A stretch of 45,354 nt of DNA from Gammaproteobacteria bacterium (GTDB lineage Bacteria; Pseudomonadota; Gammaproteobacteria; Pseudomonadales; Azotimanducaceae): positions 1-45,354 of the forward strand of contig JAPOYI010000049.1 in NCBI GenBank assembly GCA_026706665.1, read 5' to 3'. How positions within the stretch are numbered: the stretch's first letter is position 1; every line of letters begins with the position of its first letter. Positions 17,946-44,099 of this stretch are shown one piece after another. The position numbers and the translations under genes were made by a program. The notes below the pieces were generated by a model, which was given only the letters and a program-made list of their open reading frames with translations, was not told where the DNA came from and made no database searches.

Positions 17946-17983
17946 CCGTAGGCGGCGTGGGACAGAACAGTCCGCATAGGAAA

Positions 17984-18116
17984 GCTAGGGTTCCGGCCTT
18001 CCCCAAGGCGTCTGGTCCAAGAGCTTTCGGCCTCCCCTGGAGTGGGCGTCCGCCGCAATTGCGGTGGCGCCTCTCCCTTATAGCGAGGTTACACGGAGGG
18101 ACAAAAGCCCGGGAGA
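17984..18116 (+). promoter_or_regulatory. Guanidine-I riboswitch (ykkC class)
   Basis: The conserved blocks of the ykkC/guanidine-I aptamer are in order: GCTAGGGTTCCGG at 17984-17996, CTGGTCCAAGAG near 18011-18022, and ACACGGAGGGACAAAAGCCC followed by GGGAGA at 18091-18116. The segment between them forms a variable GC-rich stem. The aptamer binds free guanidinium. The expression platform is not obvious. TAAGGG at 18145-18150, which contains the ribosome site of the first gene, is exactly complementary to CCCTTA at 18075-18080 inside the aptamer, suggesting control of translation. GGAGA/TCTCC (18112-18128) could form a further small hairpin. No terminator with a T-run is seen. Confidence 0.92.
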
Positions 18117-18156
18117 TTGCCTGTCTCCATCTGTGAACCAAGGCTAAGGGACAACC

Positions 18157-36651: not shown

Positions 36652-39600
36652 TCACCGGGGGTCGACCCGGGCGAGCCCGATCTTCCAGCGCTCCTCGCCG
36701 AGTGCGTGCTCGGCCGAAAACGCGGGTGACCAGTCCCCTTCGCGCCAGCGAGTCGCCAGGGTCTCTTCCATGACGTAGGGTCGATGCTCATCGAGAGCGG
36801 CCAGGATTCCGGGCGAACCGTCAATGCCGAGCGCGATCCGGTCAGACACGTCAAGCCCCGCCTGCTTGCGGGCGTCCTGCACGGTGCGCACCAGTTCGCG
36901 GGCGAGGCCCTCTCGTACCAGGTCCTCTGTCAGCGTGGTGTCGAGGCCCGCGAGGTAGCCTCCCTCTTCTGCGCAGGCATAGCCTTGGGCTGACGTCGAT
37001 TCGACCAGCACATCCTCTGGTTCGAAGGTGAGGGTCTCGTCGCCCACCGTCATTTCGAAGGCCCTGCCGTCGGCTGCGGCGGCAGCGATCGCGCTCCCGT
37101 CCGCCTCTGCCAGGGCAGCCTGAATCGCGGGCACGCGTCTTCCATGGCGTCTGCCGATACGGGGCAGGTTGGGCCTGACGCGGTAGCTCAGGAGATCGGC
37201 GCCGGAGGCCAGCACTTCCACCGCCTTGACGTTGAGTTCCTCGCTGATCTGCTCCGCGTGCCGCAAAAGGATCTCTTCATGCGCGGTGCCGGGTGTGCGA
37301 ACCATCAGGCGCGCGAGTGGCTGTCGCACGCGCAGGCCACTTGTATTGCGTGCCGCTCGCCCGAGTCCAACCACGCGCTGGACGACTTCGACATCGGCGA
37401 TGAGCGTGTCGTCGCGGGCTGCGGGGTCGGGTAGGGGCCATTCGCTCATATGCACGCTGATTGGCGCCGTCTCGGCGACTCCCCTTACCAGGTTCTGGTG
37501 CACCGCTTCGCTCAGGAAAGGCATGAACGGAGCCATCAGCCGGTTCACGGTATGCAGGCACTCGTACAGCGTCAGGTAGGCGGCCTGCTTGTCGCGGCCC
37601 TCGGCGGCCTTCCAGAACCGCCGCCGGTTGCGCCGCACGTACCAGTTGCTCAAGGCGTCGACAAACGACTCAATCGCCCGGCCCGCTCCCAGTACGTCGT
37701 ACGCCTCCAGCGCCCGCGTTGTGACCCATACCGTCTCATGCAGCGCCGCGAGCGCCCAGCGGTCTATCTCGGGGCGTTCGGCGAGGGGCACGTCGTCGCT
37801 GACGTCGACTTCGTCGAGCTTCGCGTACATCACGAAGAACGCGTAGGTGTTCCAGTACGTATTGATGAATCCGCCGACCACTTCGCGAACCAGTTCGACG
37901 GAGACGCGCTTTTGTGCTTCCGGGGCCTGCCGGCACGCCAGGTACCACCTGAGCGGGTCGGCGCCGACGCGGTCGAAGACCTCGTACGGATCGAGAATGT
38001 TGCCAAGTGACTTCGACATTTTCTTGCCGTCCTGGTCGACGACATGGGCGAGGCAAATGCAGTTCCTGTAGGCGACGCTGTCGGACACGAGGGTCGCGAT
38101 GGCATGCAGCGAGTAGAACCAGCCGCGCGTCTGGTCGATGGCCTCGCAGATGTAGTCGGCGGGAAACCGGCTTTCCAGAAGGTCGGCGTTCTCGAACGGA
38201 TAGTGGAACTGGGCGTAGGACATCGCGCCCGAATCGAACCAGCAGTCGATGACTTCCGGGACCCGCCTGTAGATCCGGCCGTTGTCCGGGTGCGTGAAGG
38301 CGATCTCGTCCACGGCTGGCCGGTGCAGGTCGACATCGGCCAGGTCGCGCCCGCAGAGCGATTCGAGTTCCGCTATCGACCCGATGCACATGTAGTCGCC
38401 GTCGCCATCGGTCCAGACGGGCAAAGGCGTGCCCCAGAAGCGCTCTCGCGAGAGCGCCCAGTCGACGTTGTTCTCGAGCCAGTTGCCGAAGCGTCCGTCG
38501 CGAATCGTCTCCGGGACCCATCTGATCGACCGGTTCAACTCGGCCATGCGGTCACGGAACCGGCTGGTCTCGATGTACCAGGCATCCTTGGCGTAGTAGA
38601 CCAGCGGGTCGCCGGTGCGCCACCCGTGCGGATAGTTGTGCAGCACACGTTCCGAGCGGTACATGAGCCCGCGTTCTTCGAGCAGCGCGATGAGGATCGG
38701 GTCAGCATCCTTGAAGAACTTCCCCGCCACAGGTTCCACCGCCGGGACAAAACAGCCATCGAGACCCACGCCGTGCAGGACGGGCAGACCGTGCCGCCGC
38801 CCCAGTTGAAGGTCGTCCTCTCCGTACGCCGGCGCACAGTGGACGATCCCGGTGCCTTCCTCGACCGTAACGAAGTCCGCGGCCCACACCTGACAGATGG
38901 GGCCCTCCGCCGGCAGATAGTCGAACAGGCGCGCATAGCGCATGCCTACGAGGTCGCTGCCCTTGACCCGCTTGAGGACGGTGAATTCCGCGTCACGCAG
39001 CGCGGATTCAACCAGCGCTTCGGCAAGGATGAGCGTCTCGTCCCCGGCCCTTGCGTATATGTAATCGACATCGGCATGCGCGGCGAGGGCCAGGTTAGAC
39101 GGTAGTGTCCACGGCGTGGTCGTCCAGACGAGGAATGACGTGTCCGGCGAGCCTTGCACAGGGAAACGCACGTAAATGGAAGGGTCCTCGACTTCCTTGT
39201 AGCCGAGTGCGACTTCCTGCGAAGAGAGCGTGGCGCCGATGCGCGGATCGTAGGGAACCACCTTGTAGCCCCTGTACAGGAGCCCCTTGTCCCAGATCTG
39301 CCGGAGCAGCCACCAGACCGACTCGATGTAGCTGTTGTCGAACGTGGAGTAAGCGTCGGACAGGTTCACCCAGAAACCCATGCGTTCGGTCATCCGCTCC
39401 CAGTCGTCGATGTAGAGCTGTACCGACTCGCGGCACCTGCGAGTGAACTCGGCCACGCCCACCTGGCGTTCGATCTCGGCCTTGTCGAAGATGCCGAGTT
39501 CCTTTTCCACTTCGTGTTCGACGGGCAGGCCGTGGGTGTCCCAACCGGCCTTGCGCGGGCAGTGATAGCCCTGCATGTGCTTGAAACGGGGGAAGATATC

Positions 39601-39798
39601 CTTGAACGTGCGCGCGAGGACATGGTGAATGCCAGGCCTGCCGTTGGCGGTCGGCGGACCCTCGTTCCAGACATACAGCGGGCGGCCCTCGCTCTGCCGC
39701 TGCGCTGCATTGAACACGTCGTGCTCGCGCCACAGTTCGAGAACCGCCTGTTCGAGTCGCGTGCCGTCGTAACGGCCCGGCACGTCCCTGAATCCCAT
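36652..39798 (-). CDS. ileS: Isoleucyl-tRNA synthetase, long eukaryote-like type
   Basis: A 1048-aa class I synthetase. The HIGH-type motif appears as ANGRPGIHHVLAR (about 51-63) and KMSKS is encoded at 38008-38022 (DGKKMSKSLGN). The long form, the GRPGIHH variant and the extended C-terminal domain place it with the type 2, eukaryote-like bacterial IleRS rather than the usual proteobacterial type, which has a C-terminal zinc ribbon. Type 2 enzymes are usually mupirocin-resistant and are often acquired horizontally. The ATG at 39798 is preceded by a T-box leader containing an intrinsic terminator. It is convergent with the acyl-CoA synthetase. Confidence 0.95.
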   Translation of the reverse strand: MGFRDVPGRYDGTRLEQAVLELWREHDVFNAAQRQSEGRPLYVWNEGPPTANGRPGIHHVLARTFKDIFPRFKHMQGYHCPRKAGWDTHGLPVEHEVEKELGIFDKAEIERQVGVAEFTRRCRESVQLYIDDWERMTERMGFWVNLSDAYSTFDNSYIESVWWLLRQIWDKGLLYRGYKVVPYDPRIGATLSSQEVALGYKEVEDPSIYVRFPVQGSPDTSFLVWTTTPWTLPSNLALAAHADVDYIYARAGDETLILAEALVESALRDAEFTVLKRVKGSDLVGMRYARLFDYLPAEGPICQVWAADFVTVEEGTGIVHCAPAYGEDDLQLGRRHGLPVLHGVGLDGCFVPAVEPVAGKFFKDADPILIALLEERGLMYRSERVLHNYPHGWRTGDPLVYYAKDAWYIETSRFRDRMAELNRSIRWVPETIRDGRFGNWLENNVDWALSRERFWGTPLPVWTDGDGDYMCIGSIAELESLCGRDLADVDLHRPAVDEIAFTHPDNGRIYRRVPEVIDCWFDSGAMSYAQFHYPFENADLLESRFPADYICEAIDQTRGWFYSLHAIATLVSDSVAYRNCICLAHVVDQDGKKMSKSLGNILDPYEVFDRVGADPLRWYLACRQAPEAQKRVSVELVREVVGGFINTYWNTYAFFVMYAKLDEVDVSDDVPLAERPEIDRWALAALHETVWVTTRALEAYDVLGAGRAIESFVDALSNWYVRRNRRRFWKAAEGRDKQAAYLTLYECLHTVNRLMAPFMPFLSEAVHQNLVRGVAETAPISVHMSEWPLPDPAARDDTLIADVEVVQRVVGLGRAARNTSGLRVRQPLARLMVRTPGTAHEEILLRHAEQISEELNVKAVEVLASGADLLSYRVRPNLPRIGRRHGRRVPAIQAALAEADGSAIAAAAADGRAFEMTVGDETLTFEPEDVLVESTSAQGYACAEEGGYLAGLDTTLTEDLVREGLARELVRTVQDARKQAGLDVSDRIALGIDGSPGILAALDEHRPYVMEETLATRWREGDWSPAFSAEHALGEERWKIGLARVDPR

Positions 39799-39823
39799 CG
39801 TTCGTCGTTCTCCGAACAAGACC

Positions 39824-39875
39824 AAAACGCCCCGACAACGGATGCACGAGTCGTCAAGCATCCATTCGCGGGGCG
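39824..39875 (-). terminator. Intrinsic terminator in the ileS leader
   Basis: On the minus strand CGCCCCG (39875-39869) pairs with CGGGGCG (39834-39828), and within it GGATGC (39863-39858) pairs with GCATCC (39845-39840). The two helices are separated by symmetric five-base internal loops. A run of four T follows at 39827-39824. It lies between the T-box sequence and the ileS start, where the conditional terminator of a T-box leader belongs. Confidence 0.8.
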
Positions 39876-40140
39876 AAGGTTCGGCCGCCTCGTGCGGCCC
39901 AGCGTCGCGGTACCACCCGTGTTCGCACGCGCCTCGCGGCGCGCGCCTCATCCGGTCACGGCACCATCTTCGGCGCGATGACCCGGCCCGTTTACGGAAG
40001 CCAACCGGCCGAGCCTACTGGAATGCGAACATTCGTTCGGTCAGCGGCTCCAGGGTGATGTTCGTCGGTAGCGCCTGCGAAGCTCCCACCATCCTCCGCT
40101 CGCTGGACAGGCGCCCTGATCCGGCTACTCGTCCCCTTCA
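39824..40140 (-). promoter_or_regulatory. T-box riboswitch controlling ileS
   Basis: Reading the minus strand from about 40140: AGGGGACGAGTAG opens stem I, and GGTGGGAGC is the AG-bulge-like element. GAACATCACCCTGGAGCC contains the specifier loop, with the isoleucine codon ATC at 40059-40057. The T-box GGGTGGTACCGCG lies at 39918-39906, and the terminator at 39875-39824. All core elements are in the canonical order and the specifier codon fits the downstream gene. The leader should sense uncharged tRNA-Ile (GAU anticodon) and allow ileS transcription when it accumulates. T-boxes are characteristic of Gram-positive bacteria. I see no obvious promoter further upstream. Confidence 0.88.
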
Positions 40141-40708
40141 CAGCCTTTTGGTTGCCGGCTCGTCTCCACCTGGCGGGGCGCGCCCGGACGGAAGAAACCT
40201 GCAATACCGCGTGATCTTAACGCGGCGTGGAACTGCAAACCACCGCGCTGGCTTCACCCCCGCCCAAGCCGACCCACGACTCGATCCCCGGGCAGCCCGA
40301 TCGACTCGGGAAGTCCGATCCGCTCCGATCCGCGATGCGGGGCCGCAACGCTACGGTTTCTTGGTATGCTCGATCGCGGATGACGCCGTACAGCGCGGGC
40401 TGGACCCGAAAGCCGGGCCACCCGCCGAATACGTGAGCCGCAATGCCCGGCGAGGGATAGCTTCCCCCGCCCGTGGTGAATAGGCGGGAAACTCTCACAG
40501 CCCCGCTGTGGCCTTGTCCACGACCCGGCACCCAATTCTTCGGGCCGGGCAATAGGGGATGAAGCATGGATCGGGTCGCTTGGCGGCTGGCGTCGTCTTT
40601 CGGACCATGAGCACGCGGACGGTGCGCGCGGCCCACCGGCCGGATGCTCGATCAACGCCGGTGACCGGCTGTTCGAACCACGCTCTCCTCGGGTGTGGAC
40701 GGACGTAA
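40141..40708. other. 568-base region without a recognisable gene
   Basis: This lies between the ileS leader (minus) and a small plus-strand ORF. It contains several strong inverted repeats: CCGCGT/ACGCGG around a seven-base loop at 40207-40225, CACAG/CTGTG at 40496-40510, and CCCGGC/GCCGGG at about 40524-40548. Open frames here have arginine/proline-rich composition on both strands and no family signal. It may carry the ileS promoter and perhaps a structured RNA. I could not match it to any RNA family I know. Confidence 0.5.
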
Positions 40709-40939: not shown

Positions 40940-41436
40940 CGGATCCTCGAACTGACAGGCGCACAGCGCGCTTGGCCAACGCGGGGATATCGAGGCTTGT
41001 CCGGTGTCCGCGGCCGCGGCGCGGTTGCGCCGCCGATGGCAACACCCTGGCAGTGATGGTGTGCCGCCGCCCCGCTGCCCGAAGCTGTATCCGGCGCATG
41101 GCCTGGAGGATGGGCTGGGGTCCGGAAGCGTGCGCCGGCATTCCGCACTGCCGAAATTAGTAGTCGACCTGGTTTGCGGGTAGCTGTACCACCTACCTGT
41201 TGGTTTGCTGCAACTACCGGTTCTTTGCATTGCCTCCCCAAATCACGGCCCGGATAATTTCCGGGCCCACGGACTGATATCGGTCGGTTCAAACCTCGAA
41301 CGGGTTCCCGGATCCGAGGATTGGGATCGTCTCAGACTGGCCTTGCGCCGATGGGCTGCCGATGTTGCAGCGCATGGACCCGTATGGCCGGATTGGTGAT
41401 TGAGGCGCATGGAGCTTGGTGAGGGTCTTTGACAGG
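40940..41436. other. 497-base region without a recognisable gene
   Basis: I see no gene or RNA family here. A hairpin GCCCGG/CCGGGC with a seven-base AT-rich loop lies at 41248-41266 and could end transcription from upstream, though it has no T-run. The last 30 bases before 41437 hold the possible alternative TTG/GTG starts (41416, 41419) of the peroxidase gene. Confidence 0.5.
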
Positions 41437-42411
41437 ATGAGCGTCTCTGACAAGAAGCCGAAACGCGGATTCTGCGGTTGGCTCAGGCTGACGGTCGCTT
41501 GCCTGGCGGTTGCAGCACCCGCCAATGGCGAACCCATCAAACCGATCCCTCAGAACAACGGTACAGATTCGGCCAAGGCCGCGCTCGGGAGAATGCTGTT
41601 CCACGATACGCGGCTTTCGAAGGACGACTCGGTGTCCTGCGCCAGCTGCCACGAACTCTCTTCGGGCGGCGACGACGGTCGAAAGGTCTCAGTTGGCATC
41701 GACGAATTACCTGGCCTTGTGAATTCGCCGACGGTGTACAACGCGGGCTTCAATTTCAAGCAGTTTTGGGATGGTCGGGCGGACACGCTCTCTGAGCAGA
41801 TCGACGGTCCAGTGCAGTCTTCGATCGAAATGGGCAGCGTGTGGCCCGAGGTCGTCAGCAAGCTGTTCAAGGATGAGAACTACCCGGCGCTCTTCGGCAA
41901 CATCTATTCCGATGGCATAAACCGGACGAACATCAAGGATGCGATAGCTGAGTTCATCAGGTCGCTGACCACTCCGAATGGCCGGTTCGACCGGTGGTTG
42001 ACCGGAGAAGCCGACGCCATCACCCCGCTGGAACGGCGGGGCTACACCTTGTTCAAGTACTACGGTTGCGTGTCCTGCCACCAGGGCGCGAACGTCGGAG
42101 GCAACATGTTTCAGGTGTTTGGCGTCATCAACGAGTTTTTCAAACGTCGCGGCAATATCACGGAGGCTGACATGGGCCGTTACAACATCACCGGTAACGA
42201 GGCGGACATGCATGCATTCAAGGTTCCGAGCCTGAGAATGGCGGCCTACACGGCGCCTTATCTGCATGACGGCAGCGCCGCTACGTTGCGTGATGCCGTT
42301 GATGCCATGTTCGAATTCCAGTTGGGGAGAGAAGCGCCGGATGCAGACAAGGACGCAATCGTTGCCTTCATCAGGACACTGGCGGGAGAGTCCGAGGAGC
42401 TGACACAGTGA
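41437..42411 (+). CDS. Di-heme cytochrome c peroxidase / MauG family protein
   Basis: A 324-aa exported protein. A signal peptide (WLRLTVACLAVAAPANG) precedes two c-type heme sites, CASCH at 68-72 and CVSCH at 211-215. Typical family segments are LGRMLFHDTRLS, NSPTVYNAGFN, FWDGRADTL and KVPSLRMAAYTAPYLHDGS, where a methionine-type ligand region would lie. It reduces hydrogen peroxide with electrons from cytochrome, or modifies a protein as MauG does. The ATG at 41437 was preferred, but a GTG at 41419 preceded by GGAG is possible. The kinase-like gene overlaps its end by four bases. Confidence 0.9.
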   Translation: MSVSDKKPKRGFCGWLRLTVACLAVAAPANGEPIKPIPQNNGTDSAKAALGRMLFHDTRLSKDDSVSCASCHELSSGGDDGRKVSVGIDELPGLVNSPTVYNAGFNFKQFWDGRADTLSEQIDGPVQSSIEMGSVWPEVVSKLFKDENYPALFGNIYSDGINRTNIKDAIAEFIRSLTTPNGRFDRWLTGEADAITPLERRGYTLFKYYGCVSCHQGANVGGNMFQVFGVINEFFKRRGNITEADMGRYNITGNEADMHAFKVPSLRMAAYTAPYLHDGSAATLRDAVDAMFEFQLGREAPDADKDAIVAFIRTLAGESEELTQ

Positions 42412-44099
42412 AGTCAAACAATTCGATCATGGTCGCGACCGTCCTGTCGCTCATTCTTGTCGCAGCGGTTTCGGTTCTCTACTGGCTTGTCCGCAACAAC
42501 GGCGTGGAGGGGTACCGCTCTTCCATTTCCGGTGTGCAGCAGATTCAGCAGTTGGCGGCGGACTGGAGCATAGAAACAGCCCGCGTGAGGTCCGACCCGC
42601 TGGCCGATTTCGACTCGCTGGTGGCTTTCATCCCACAGATGAACCAACTCAAGGGCGTGCTCATGGCGCAGGTCAGGAGCATTCCCGACGTTCCGGACAG
42701 GCTGGCGAACGACGTGAGCGCGTACGTTAACGCGGTGGACGCCAAGGAAGAGCGAATTGAGCGCTTCAAGACGGGATACGCGGTAATCAGGAACTCATCG
42801 CGTTACCTGCCGGTGGCGGCGGCGAACATCGTGCAGGCGCCGGACCTCAATCGCGAACTGCTGGGTGAAGTGACTACCCTGACGAACGAAATCGACGGCT
42901 ATCTGGCTGCTCCGACCGACGCCACAAAAGGGCGCCTGACCGTTGCGCTGGAGCGCCTGGGCGAACGCGCTGCGGTGCTGCCCTCGCCGTTACCCAACTA
43001 TTTCGCAAACTTCATCTCCCACGCGGAGGTCCTGCTCGCACGACAGGCACCCACCGACGAACTGTTTTCGCTGGCGACATCAAATGAGATATCGGATCTC
43101 GCGATCCAGCTCGTGGACGAACTGGGATTCGAACTCAGCCGGAAACAGGAACGTAACAGCTACTATCTGAACGGCATCCTGGCGGCGGCGGCGGCACTGT
43201 TGTTGCTGTGGATCGCGTTCGCGGTCAGCAGAACGCGAACTGCGGTCGCGCAGGTGACCGCTTCGCCTGTTGAGTCTGTGGCGGTCGCTCCCGCACAACG
43301 CGCAGAGGTCGTCGAGGCGCCTGGAACTGGCGTCCGCGGTCCGGCTCCGGGCGCGGAGAAGTCGTGGAATGGCGCTGACTCCACGAATGCGAAGCTCTTG
43401 ATGTCGCACAAGATACTCTCGGAAGTCATGGGCAAACGCCTTGCCGAGACTGCGGACGACATCGCAACGGGCATCGAATCACTCACCGAGGCGAACGACA
43501 GGGTCCAGGAATCCCAGAGCGATGACGAGCGCGCCGAGGTGGTGGCGACGGCGAATGCCATCGTGGCCAGGGTTCGGTCCCAGGCGGCGGAAATCGCGGA
43601 GGTCGCGGAACGCCTGTCGGCTCTTGGCAAAAGGCAGGGCGGAGCGAGCTATAGCCTGGTTGATGTCAATGACTGTATCGAGGAAGTCGTCACCGTAACG
43701 CAGGCCGAGAACGTTGCGACGGTCGAGACGGAATACGGGGACGCTCCCGACATCTTCGCGTTGAGGCCGGAAATCTGCCTGATGCTGGAGAAGGTCGTCG
43801 AGAACTCCATGCAGGCAATTCAGGAGAAGAACGAAGACGAGGGCGGGGAAATCAGAATCGCGACGAGTGGAGAGAACGACAAGGTGTACATCACGATCAT
43901 CGACAATGGTGTCGGCATGTCGACCGAGGTACGCGAGAAGATGTTCCAGCCATTCTATTCGGCGACGGGTGACCGGAACGGCGTCGGGCTCACCTGTACG
44001 ACCTACCTGGTGGAGAAGTACGGCGGGTCGGTTTCTGTCAGTTCAATGCTGGGCGGTGGAACCGTAACGCGAATAACGGTGCCGGGAATGCCGGAATAG
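42408..44099 (+). CDS. Membrane histidine kinase-like protein with DAHL-type sensor region
   Basis: A 563-aa protein. Membrane helices at about 8-28 and 255-273 enclose a helical periplasmic sensor region with WSIETARVRSDPLADFDSLV, the pattern of the DAHL domain. The C-terminal ATPase domain has an N-box (EKVVENSMQAI, 461-471), G1 (IDNGVGM, 498-504), an F-box (FQPFYSATG) and G2 (GVGLTCTTYLVEKYGG). No standard HisKA H-box is present. The only candidate is H334 in LLMSHKILSEVMGKRL. The GTG start overlaps the peroxidase stop. No response regulator is in the window. It may sense the state of the peroxidase's substrate in the periplasm. Confidence 0.82.
   Translation: MKSNNSIMVATVLSLILVAAVSVLYWLVRNNGVEGYRSSISGVQQIQQLAADWSIETARVRSDPLADFDSLVAFIPQMNQLKGVLMAQVRSIPDVPDRLANDVSAYVNAVDAKEERIERFKTGYAVIRNSSRYLPVAAANIVQAPDLNRELLGEVTTLTNEIDGYLAAPTDATKGRLTVALERLGERAAVLPSPLPNYFANFISHAEVLLARQAPTDELFSLATSNEISDLAIQLVDELGFELSRKQERNSYYLNGILAAAAALLLLWIAFAVSRTRTAVAQVTASPVESVAVAPAQRAEVVEAPGTGVRGPAPGAEKSWNGADSTNAKLLMSHKILSEVMGKRLAETADDIATGIESLTEANDRVQESQSDDERAEVVATANAIVARVRSQAAEIAEVAERLSALGKRQGGASYSLVDVNDCIEEVVTVTQAENVATVETEYGDAPDIFALRPEICLMLEKVVENSMQAIQEKNEDEGGEIRIATSGENDKVYITIIDNGVGMSTEVREKMFQPFYSATGDRNGVGLTCTTYLVEKYGGSVSVSSMLGGGTVTRITVPGMPE

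Follow-up and report, generated by a model that had tools for sequence, protein, structure and literature searches.

An isoleucine T-box leader upstream of ileS in a gammaproteobacterium whose resident synthetase gene appears to have been replaced

The ileS gene and its leader

The window, by which we mean the whole 45,354-nt stretch of DNA analyzed here, comes from an assembly of 252 contigs and 5.0 Mb (G000), and encodes an isoleucyl-tRNA synthetase, P0001, on its minus strand (Table 1). P0001 was the only match to TIGR00392 above the cut-off in this genome. We rejected the presence of a second ileS, as the other TIGR00392 matches reached only 27–218 bits and, judging from their partial extent and ORF sizes, look like related class I synthetases. 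A mupirocin-type (MupA/MupB) identity for P0001 was also rejected, with scores of 799 and 771 bits that fall far under the cut-offs of 1900. In the window genome, as in two others of its genus (G399 and G400), the gene and its leader sit between an acyl-CoA ligase gene and MauG-like/histidine-kinase genes.

We found that the ileS leader (40150–39799, minus strand) is a complete isoleucine T-box. An earlier note on this DNA had claimed a full T-box in the minus-strand ileS leader and proposed a search with the Rfam model RF00230; run on the window with Infernal, this returned a match at 40150–39866 (minus strand) that covers 219 of 219 model positions (62.6 bits, E = 5.6e-13). The interval first assigned to the T-box, 39799 to 40140, holds the leader but stops about 10 nt short of the T-box start, which lies near 40150. 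Against the whole 5.0-Mb genome the E-value was 6.0e-13, and no other RF00230 match appeared there even at E ≤ 10. Because 62.6 bits is under the Rfam gathering score of 93 for RF00230, a default Rfam scan misses this T-box; such a scan of the window reported a Guanidine-I riboswitch only.

Table 1. Features of the ileS locus, in window positions.
Feature	Position	Strand	Basis
T-box Stem I: lower helices, AGCGA (40104–40100), GGUG (40090–40087), specifier loop	40047–40150	minus	RF00230 alignment
Specifier codon AUC (isoleucine)	40057–40059	minus	Place in RF00230 alignment
Stem II, GAA and AGUA strands	40009–40044	minus	RF00230 alignment
Stem IIA/B region, extended here	39960–40007	minus	RF00230 alignment, helix 7
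Stem III hairpin	39922–39947	minus	Leader fold; covarying hairpin, columns 231–289 of the 36-leader alignment
Antiterminator with T-box bulge, CGGG-UGGUACC-GCGA ... UCGC-CCCG	39869–39919	minus	RF00230 alignment, conservation, constrained fold
Intrinsic-terminator-like hairpin CGCCCCG...CGGGGCG (39875–39828) and TTTT (39827–39824)	39824–39875	minus	Hairpin −31.1 kcal/mol
Probable Shine-Dalgarno GGAG, 3′ of the hairpin and outside it	39810–39813	minus	Read from sequence
ileS, isoleucyl-tRNA synthetase (P0001), 1048 aa, ATG at 39798	36652–39798	minus	TIGR00392, 906 bits (cut-off 621)

Within Stem I, we take AGCGA and GGUG to be the apical elements, and the GAA and AGUA strands of Stem II are presumably S-turn-like. 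The isoleucine specifier and the invariant T-box sequence, both of which had been read from the letters in the earlier note, were recovered by the analysis: the ATC at 40059–40057 sits in GAACATCACC, where as AUC it would pair with the anticodon GAU of tRNA-Ile, and the T-box sequence GGGUGGUACCGCG is present, with GGGTGGTACCGCG at 39918–39906 (minus strand). The antiterminator is closed by UCGCCCCG, and its UGGU bulge is complementary to the tRNA 3′ ACCA; we assume that the U at the variable position matches the discriminator base A73 of tRNA-Ile.

The segment CGCCCCG is common to the 3′ strand of the antiterminator and the 5′ arm of the terminator-like hairpin. Folding of the leader, another proposed check, revealed the Stem III hairpin, and constrained folds of the leader in isolation gave −52.3 kcal/mol for the terminator form vs −37.6 kcal/mol for the forced antiterminator, which is the order expected if the switch stays off until tRNA binds. 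The claim that a T-run terminator precedes the ileS ATG stood as regards the hairpin and its TTTT, but the T-run is short (TTTTGG), which explains why a generic terminator scan of the leader reported no terminator. At the same place the closest relative (L104) has TTTTTGGTTTT. A scan of the leader for sigma-70-like promoters found none. The leader also contains an ATG in frame with ileS, at 39951. From there the ileS ORF (36652–39951, minus strand) measures 1099 aa, and automatic gene calling could therefore place the start of ileS within the T-box.

This leader combines the features by which class I T-boxes are recognized in RF00230, namely a full-length, significant covariance match, a Stem I specifier that agrees with the amino acid of the regulated gene, a UGGN bulge within the antiterminator, and a mutually exclusive terminator-like hairpin ahead of the gene, here with a short T-run.

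Conservation and distribution of the leader

We compared 38 distinct leaders, the window's and 37 more, drawn from 39 loci of which two (L191 and L199) repeat others (L085 and L098). Each of the 39 T-box loci is followed, no more than about 190 nt downstream and in the same orientation, by a P0001-type ileS, whose product is 67–97% identical to P0001 over the part covered. The specifier was AUC in every one of the 38 leaders (35 by script and 3 by reading), while the T-box sequence was GGGUGGUACCGCG in 37 and GGGUGGCACCGCG in the remaining one. A terminator-like hairpin that overlaps the antiterminator and is followed by a T-rich, sometimes interrupted, tract was found in 36 of the 38, and in many of them this tract is longer than in the window; the script did not show a clean terminator in L100 and L202. 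Only five leaders reached the gathering score of 93. In L096 and L097 the terminator hairpin holds very long inverted repeats that are nearly perfect, as would result from the insertion of small repeat elements into the hairpin loop.

An alignment of 36 leaders, with L100 and L202 left out, was used to assess covariation. For the Rfam-derived structure, 87.0% of cells were paired, compared with 79.6% after shuffling, a test that is inflated by the relatedness of the rows, and with 30–48% when the structure was slid along the alignment, a control that keeps this relatedness and favors the tested structure because one of the rows served to map that structure. Cells with two-sided changes numbered 153 vs 61.9 in the shuffled alignments, and the covariation score was 0.311 vs 0.170, with none of 500 shuffles as high. 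In the RNAalifold structure, compensatory changes were seen in 34 of 46 pairs. Among the individual elements, the Stem I helices had 61–100% of cells paired and two-sided changes in 16 of 21 pairs, helix 6 was 88% paired with two-sided changes in 5 of 6 pairs, and helices 9 and 10 of the antiterminator were paired in 100% of cells. As to the S-turn and Stem IIA/B, the Stem II helix is conserved together with its GAA and AGUA strands, of which the AA of GAA and the UA of AGUA are invariant in the 36 rows and the other letters are kept in at least 70%. Poor pairing was seen for helices 4 (61%) and 8 (57%) of the Rfam-derived structure, probably in part through misregister, since RNAalifold puts Stem III slightly differently and Stem III covaries there. 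Given the E-value, the covariation and the location before ileS, we rejected a chance origin of the window match.

We searched the 27 genomes behind the IleS loci of records titled Gammaproteobacteria or one of its subgroups, or only Proteobacteria (L012 and L022), and 21 of them contained a T-box. The six misses are of several kinds. Two (L060 and L070) were rejected as members of the gammaproteobacterial IleS clade despite their titles, because their IleS fall with those of Rhodothermota and other phyla in the tree of 76 IleS described below. The contig of L023 begins inside ileS, and for L009 and L075 the T-box motif was absent from the upstream sequence read, which extended to up to 2.5 kb. 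At L008 (4822–5000) we observed a T-box remnant in which a long hairpin replaces Stem I, with a degenerate bulge, GTGTGGTACCGTG, and a terminator-like hairpin kept.

Across the class, we sampled 369 genomes and found a T-box in two, the window's own and G194; the filters were strict and the count is a lower bound, in keeping with the rarity in the class that had been claimed for this element. In the order of G194, T-boxes were present in 17 of 117 genomes including G194 itself, one in family f208 and 16 in family f163, the latter figure being a count of T-box genomes and not a share of that family. The T-box is thus recurrent in one gammaproteobacterial family, f163, which is probably Woeseiaceae, judging from the Woeseiaceae-titled records close to G194 in the IleS tree. 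One f163 carrier (G544) is a single contig of 4,059,891 bases. Among 14 control genomes, matches at E ≤ 0.001 or stricter were limited to five (Bacillus subtilis, Thermus, Deinobacterium, Corynebacterium and Lactococcus), all in phyla with known T-boxes; at E ≤ 0.01 an archaeon was added (6 of 14), and at E ≤ 10 the count was 10 of 14. The E. coli and Caulobacter controls gave no RF00230 match at any threshold used, up to E ≤ 10.

Host, resident ileS and origin of the unit

On the evidence of synteny and 16S, the host of the window's T-box and ileS is a gammaproteobacterium, as had been claimed. The single-contig chromosome of an uncultured Pseudomonadales (OX638346.1, the genome of locus L002) also carries the T-box and ileS, and the window from 29.9 to 45.3 kb aligns with it in four collinear blocks of 78–89% DNA identity, which cover about 13.4 of 15.4 kb. 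Its 16S is 83.3–83.4% identical to that of E. coli, and in a comparison with a plasmid collection the best 25 of 571 matching records were all gammaproteobacterial (83.0–86.4%). G399, which belongs to the window's genus, and OX638346.1 agree in the place and the score of their T-box, and G400 matches the same part of the window in blocks of 91–96% DNA identity. A tRNA-Ile(GAU), the expected partner of the AUC specifier, is present in the rRNA operon of G399; a pattern search did not find it in the window genome, probably because the rRNA operon was not assembled there.

T-boxes were found in 3 of 58 relatives, all within the window's genus (3 of 9 genomes, namely G000, G399 and G400), and these same three carry the P0001-type IleS (89–100% identical). 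Five others of the genus (G396, G397, G398, G402 and G403) have a different IleS, 40–41% identical to P0001, and in G401, which is 64% complete, we found only a weak match to a related synthetase. In other genomes of the family, no T-box was detected at E ≤ 1e-4 (0 of 28), and 27 of the 28 had an IleS match that was at best 38–42% identical to P0001; in the rest of the order, the counts were 0 of 21 for the T-box, with IleS matches at 28–32%. We checked the surroundings of the resident ileS in G397, G398, G402 and G403, and in all four the gene adjoins one for a luciferase-like monooxygenase. This monooxygenase gene is also present in G000, G399 and G400, where the 13–16 kb read around it held neither the resident ileS nor its phosphodiesterase neighbor, and none of these three genomes has a second full-length IleS. 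A missing resident gene together with a T-box and ileS elsewhere in the genome is what displacement by an incoming unit would leave, and it thus appears from these comparisons that the T-box-type ileS stands in for a different, original ileS, and that switch and gene were acquired together.

To place P0001, we used a tree of 76 IleS sequences (LG+G4, drawn with midpoint rooting; 16 rows were dropped for size). The L022 protein was kept out of the tree, having 10 stops in its matched stretch, and its T-box is still counted. The 27 IleS of the gammaproteobacterial set form one clade (support 100/100) that lies among IleS of Chloroflexota and Deinococcota. It joins Trueperaceae (L042 and L058) and Ktedonobacter-like Chloroflexota (L046 and L049) at 98/91, with L036 (titled bacterium) and L039 (Thermaceae) next at 98/93. 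Four of these six nearest outgroup genes (L039, L042, L049 and L058) have at least 12 of the 13 letters of the T-box motif within 160 nt upstream, and L036 and L046 lack the motif in 2.5 kb upstream. Together with the exchange of ileS within the genus, this supports the suggestion, made when the leader was first noticed, that regulator and synthetase were transferred together. As 2 of the 6 nearest genes lack the motif, the ancestral T-box is an inference. More broadly, 11 of 24 Chloroflexota/Deinococcota-type ileS genes had at least 12 of 13 motif letters within 160 nt, and L048 had a partial motif (10 of 13); 28 of 40 outgroup genomes hold RF00230 matches somewhere, and an upstream motif alone is not a T-box. 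Four Chloroflexota loci (L026, L032, L033 and L037) have the full motif 0.86–0.95 kb upstream of ileS, possibly with a gene between.

T-boxes are present in L016 and L017, which branch first in the gammaproteobacterial clade, so the ancestor of this clade probably had a T-box, and L003, L008, L009 and L075 look like later losses. At L003 (3065–3098), what precedes the ileS of JAJEAD010000026.1 is a stump, the first nucleotides of the T-box, and the rest has apparently been deleted. A different contig from that assembly (L100) carries a T-box ahead of a second ileS, and this ileS is cut short by the contig end; the assembly is a MAG, and a mixed bin is possible. Judging from the recurrence of the T-box in family f163, the entry of the unit into Gammaproteobacteria is old. 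The patchy distribution suggests that the window copy arrived later, by transfer within the class.

Proposed mechanism and relation to known T-boxes

We consider it very probable that a canonical class I, transcriptional isoleucine T-box controls ileS here, and that T-box and gene were acquired as a unit from a lineage related to Chloroflexota/Deinococcota and displaced the resident ileS. The anatomy of the RNA, its conservation and covariation, the host, the single ileS and the pattern of replacement can be read directly from the sequences compared, and tRNA binding, switching and termination would follow by analogy with known T-boxes. By that analogy, Stem I of the nascent leader would bind tRNA-Ile(GAU) through the AUC specifier and the apical loops. 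If the tRNA were uncharged, its free ACCA end would pair with the UGGU bulge and hold the antiterminator, and ileS would be transcribed; if it were charged, the more stable terminator would form and transcription would stop. As to history, for which we infer both the donor and the direction of transfer, the unit would have entered Gammaproteobacteria from a lineage related to Chloroflexota/Deinococcota, taken hold in a single family, f163 (probably Woeseiaceae), and at a later time passed to an ancestor of the three T-box species of the window's genus, displacing the resident ileS there.

Other explanations have to be weighed against this one. Vertical inheritance, in which the T-box and ileS were ancestral to Gammaproteobacteria and lost almost everywhere, would account for several gammaproteobacterial lineages carrying the unit as one IleS clade. 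We give it a small chance, given the scarcity of T-boxes (2 of 369 genomes sampled across the class, 3 of 58 relatives), the low identity to P0001 of IleS from the same order and family (28–32% and 38–42%), and the position of the closest IleS outside the clade in Chloroflexota and Deinococcota. That last observation would also fit contamination, with a contig from a Chloroflexota, Deinococcota or Gram-positive genome misplaced in a gammaproteobacterial bin, as might happen in an assembly of 252 contigs. We rejected this as extremely improbable, as the window from 29.9 to 45.3 kb is syntenic with a single-contig chromosome bearing a gammaproteobacterial-type 16S, P0001 is the only ileS of the genome, and T-boxes precede ileS at 37 further distinct places.

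Concerning the mode of action, ileS is the usual target of the class II translational T-box. The leader might likewise be translational, with tRNA binding freeing the ribosome site as in actinobacterial ileS, and the short T-run and the silent generic terminator scan would fit such a mode. We see only a slim chance of this: class II leaders have a truncated Stem I without apical tRNA-elbow motifs, whereas Stem I is full here, with AGCGA and GGUG; the ribosome-binding site is not sequestered, the GGAG lying 3′ of the hairpin and outside it; and T-rich tracts, many of them longer, follow the same hairpin in most other leaders. Slimmer still is the chance that the RNA is a degenerate leftover, kept by recent descent and no longer switching. 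Apparent losses do occur in the clade (a 5′ stump at L003, a replaced Stem I at L008, and no T-box at L009 or L075), but compensatory changes run through the 36 leaders, and specifier, bulge and antiterminator are unbroken, in the window as elsewhere.

Beyond the class I switch and the single displacement described here, we tentatively raise a broader possibility, which we hold somewhat short of even: that T-box and ileS form a self-contained, self-regulated unit that crosses phyla, moves between gammaproteobacterial lineages and displaces resident synthetases. Such a unit might displace a resident essential synthetase because it would sense only the host's tRNA-Ile and need no other regulator. 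One displacement is seen here, and repeated displacements are the bold part of this proposal. If it is true, a tRNA-sensing antitermination switch operates in Gram-negative Gammaproteobacteria, and a cultured species is probably among its hosts.

In the literature searched, isoleucine T-boxes are known from Firmicutes, Dehalococcoides and Deinococcus radiodurans (PMC2494555), and surveys place T-boxes in Firmicutes, Actinobacteria, Chloroflexi, Deinococcus-Thermus and a few deltaproteobacteria (PMC2494555; PMC3766115). The class I ileS T-boxes resemble the window leader in the Stem I specifier, Stem II, GGGUGGUACCGCG, the overlap of antiterminator and terminator, and the ileS target (PMC2494555); the window leader differs in its gammaproteobacterial host, a score under the gathering cut-off and an extended region between Stem II and Stem III. 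The same source counts T-boxes in 2 of 125 proteobacterial genomes, those of Geobacter sulfurreducens and Pelobacter carbinolicus (PMC2494555), which are proteobacterial like the window's but lie outside Gammaproteobacteria and regulate leuA instead of a synthetase gene. The class II T-box of Actinobacteria, described in PMC7583486 as having a truncated Stem I and acting on translation, shares the sensing principle with the window leader, which by contrast has a full Stem I and a terminator-like hairpin.

The earlier note knew of no gammaproteobacterial T-box, and none was reported in the literature searched, mostly titles and the starts of abstracts; the recurrence of the T-box in f163 shows, however, that the window is not an isolated case. 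The main text of the TBDB paper does not contain the word "proteobacteria" (PMC7778990), and in passages of two further papers "gammaproteobacteria" is used for matters other than T-boxes (PMC11477304; PMC10234816). The mechanism proposed is ordinary T-box antitermination, and it is the host range and the gene replacement that are new within this literature. A conserved gammaproteobacterial set, mostly under the Rfam cut-off, widens the known range of T-boxes, and the exchange within one genus makes the function of a riboswitch that moved with its synthetase into a distant lineage directly testable.

Two further observations concern the window outside the ileS unit. On the side of the T-box opposite ileS, a MauG/MbnH-type di-haem protein gene adjoins one for a DAHL-domain histidine kinase (41416–44099, plus strand). 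The Guanidine-I riboswitch lies at 17974–18117 (plus strand; 82.8 bits, over its gathering score of 63), and downstream of it an operon-like run of ABC transporter genes, UAAP1/UAAP2, urea carboxylase and allophanate hydrolase follows, which is an ordinary arrangement.
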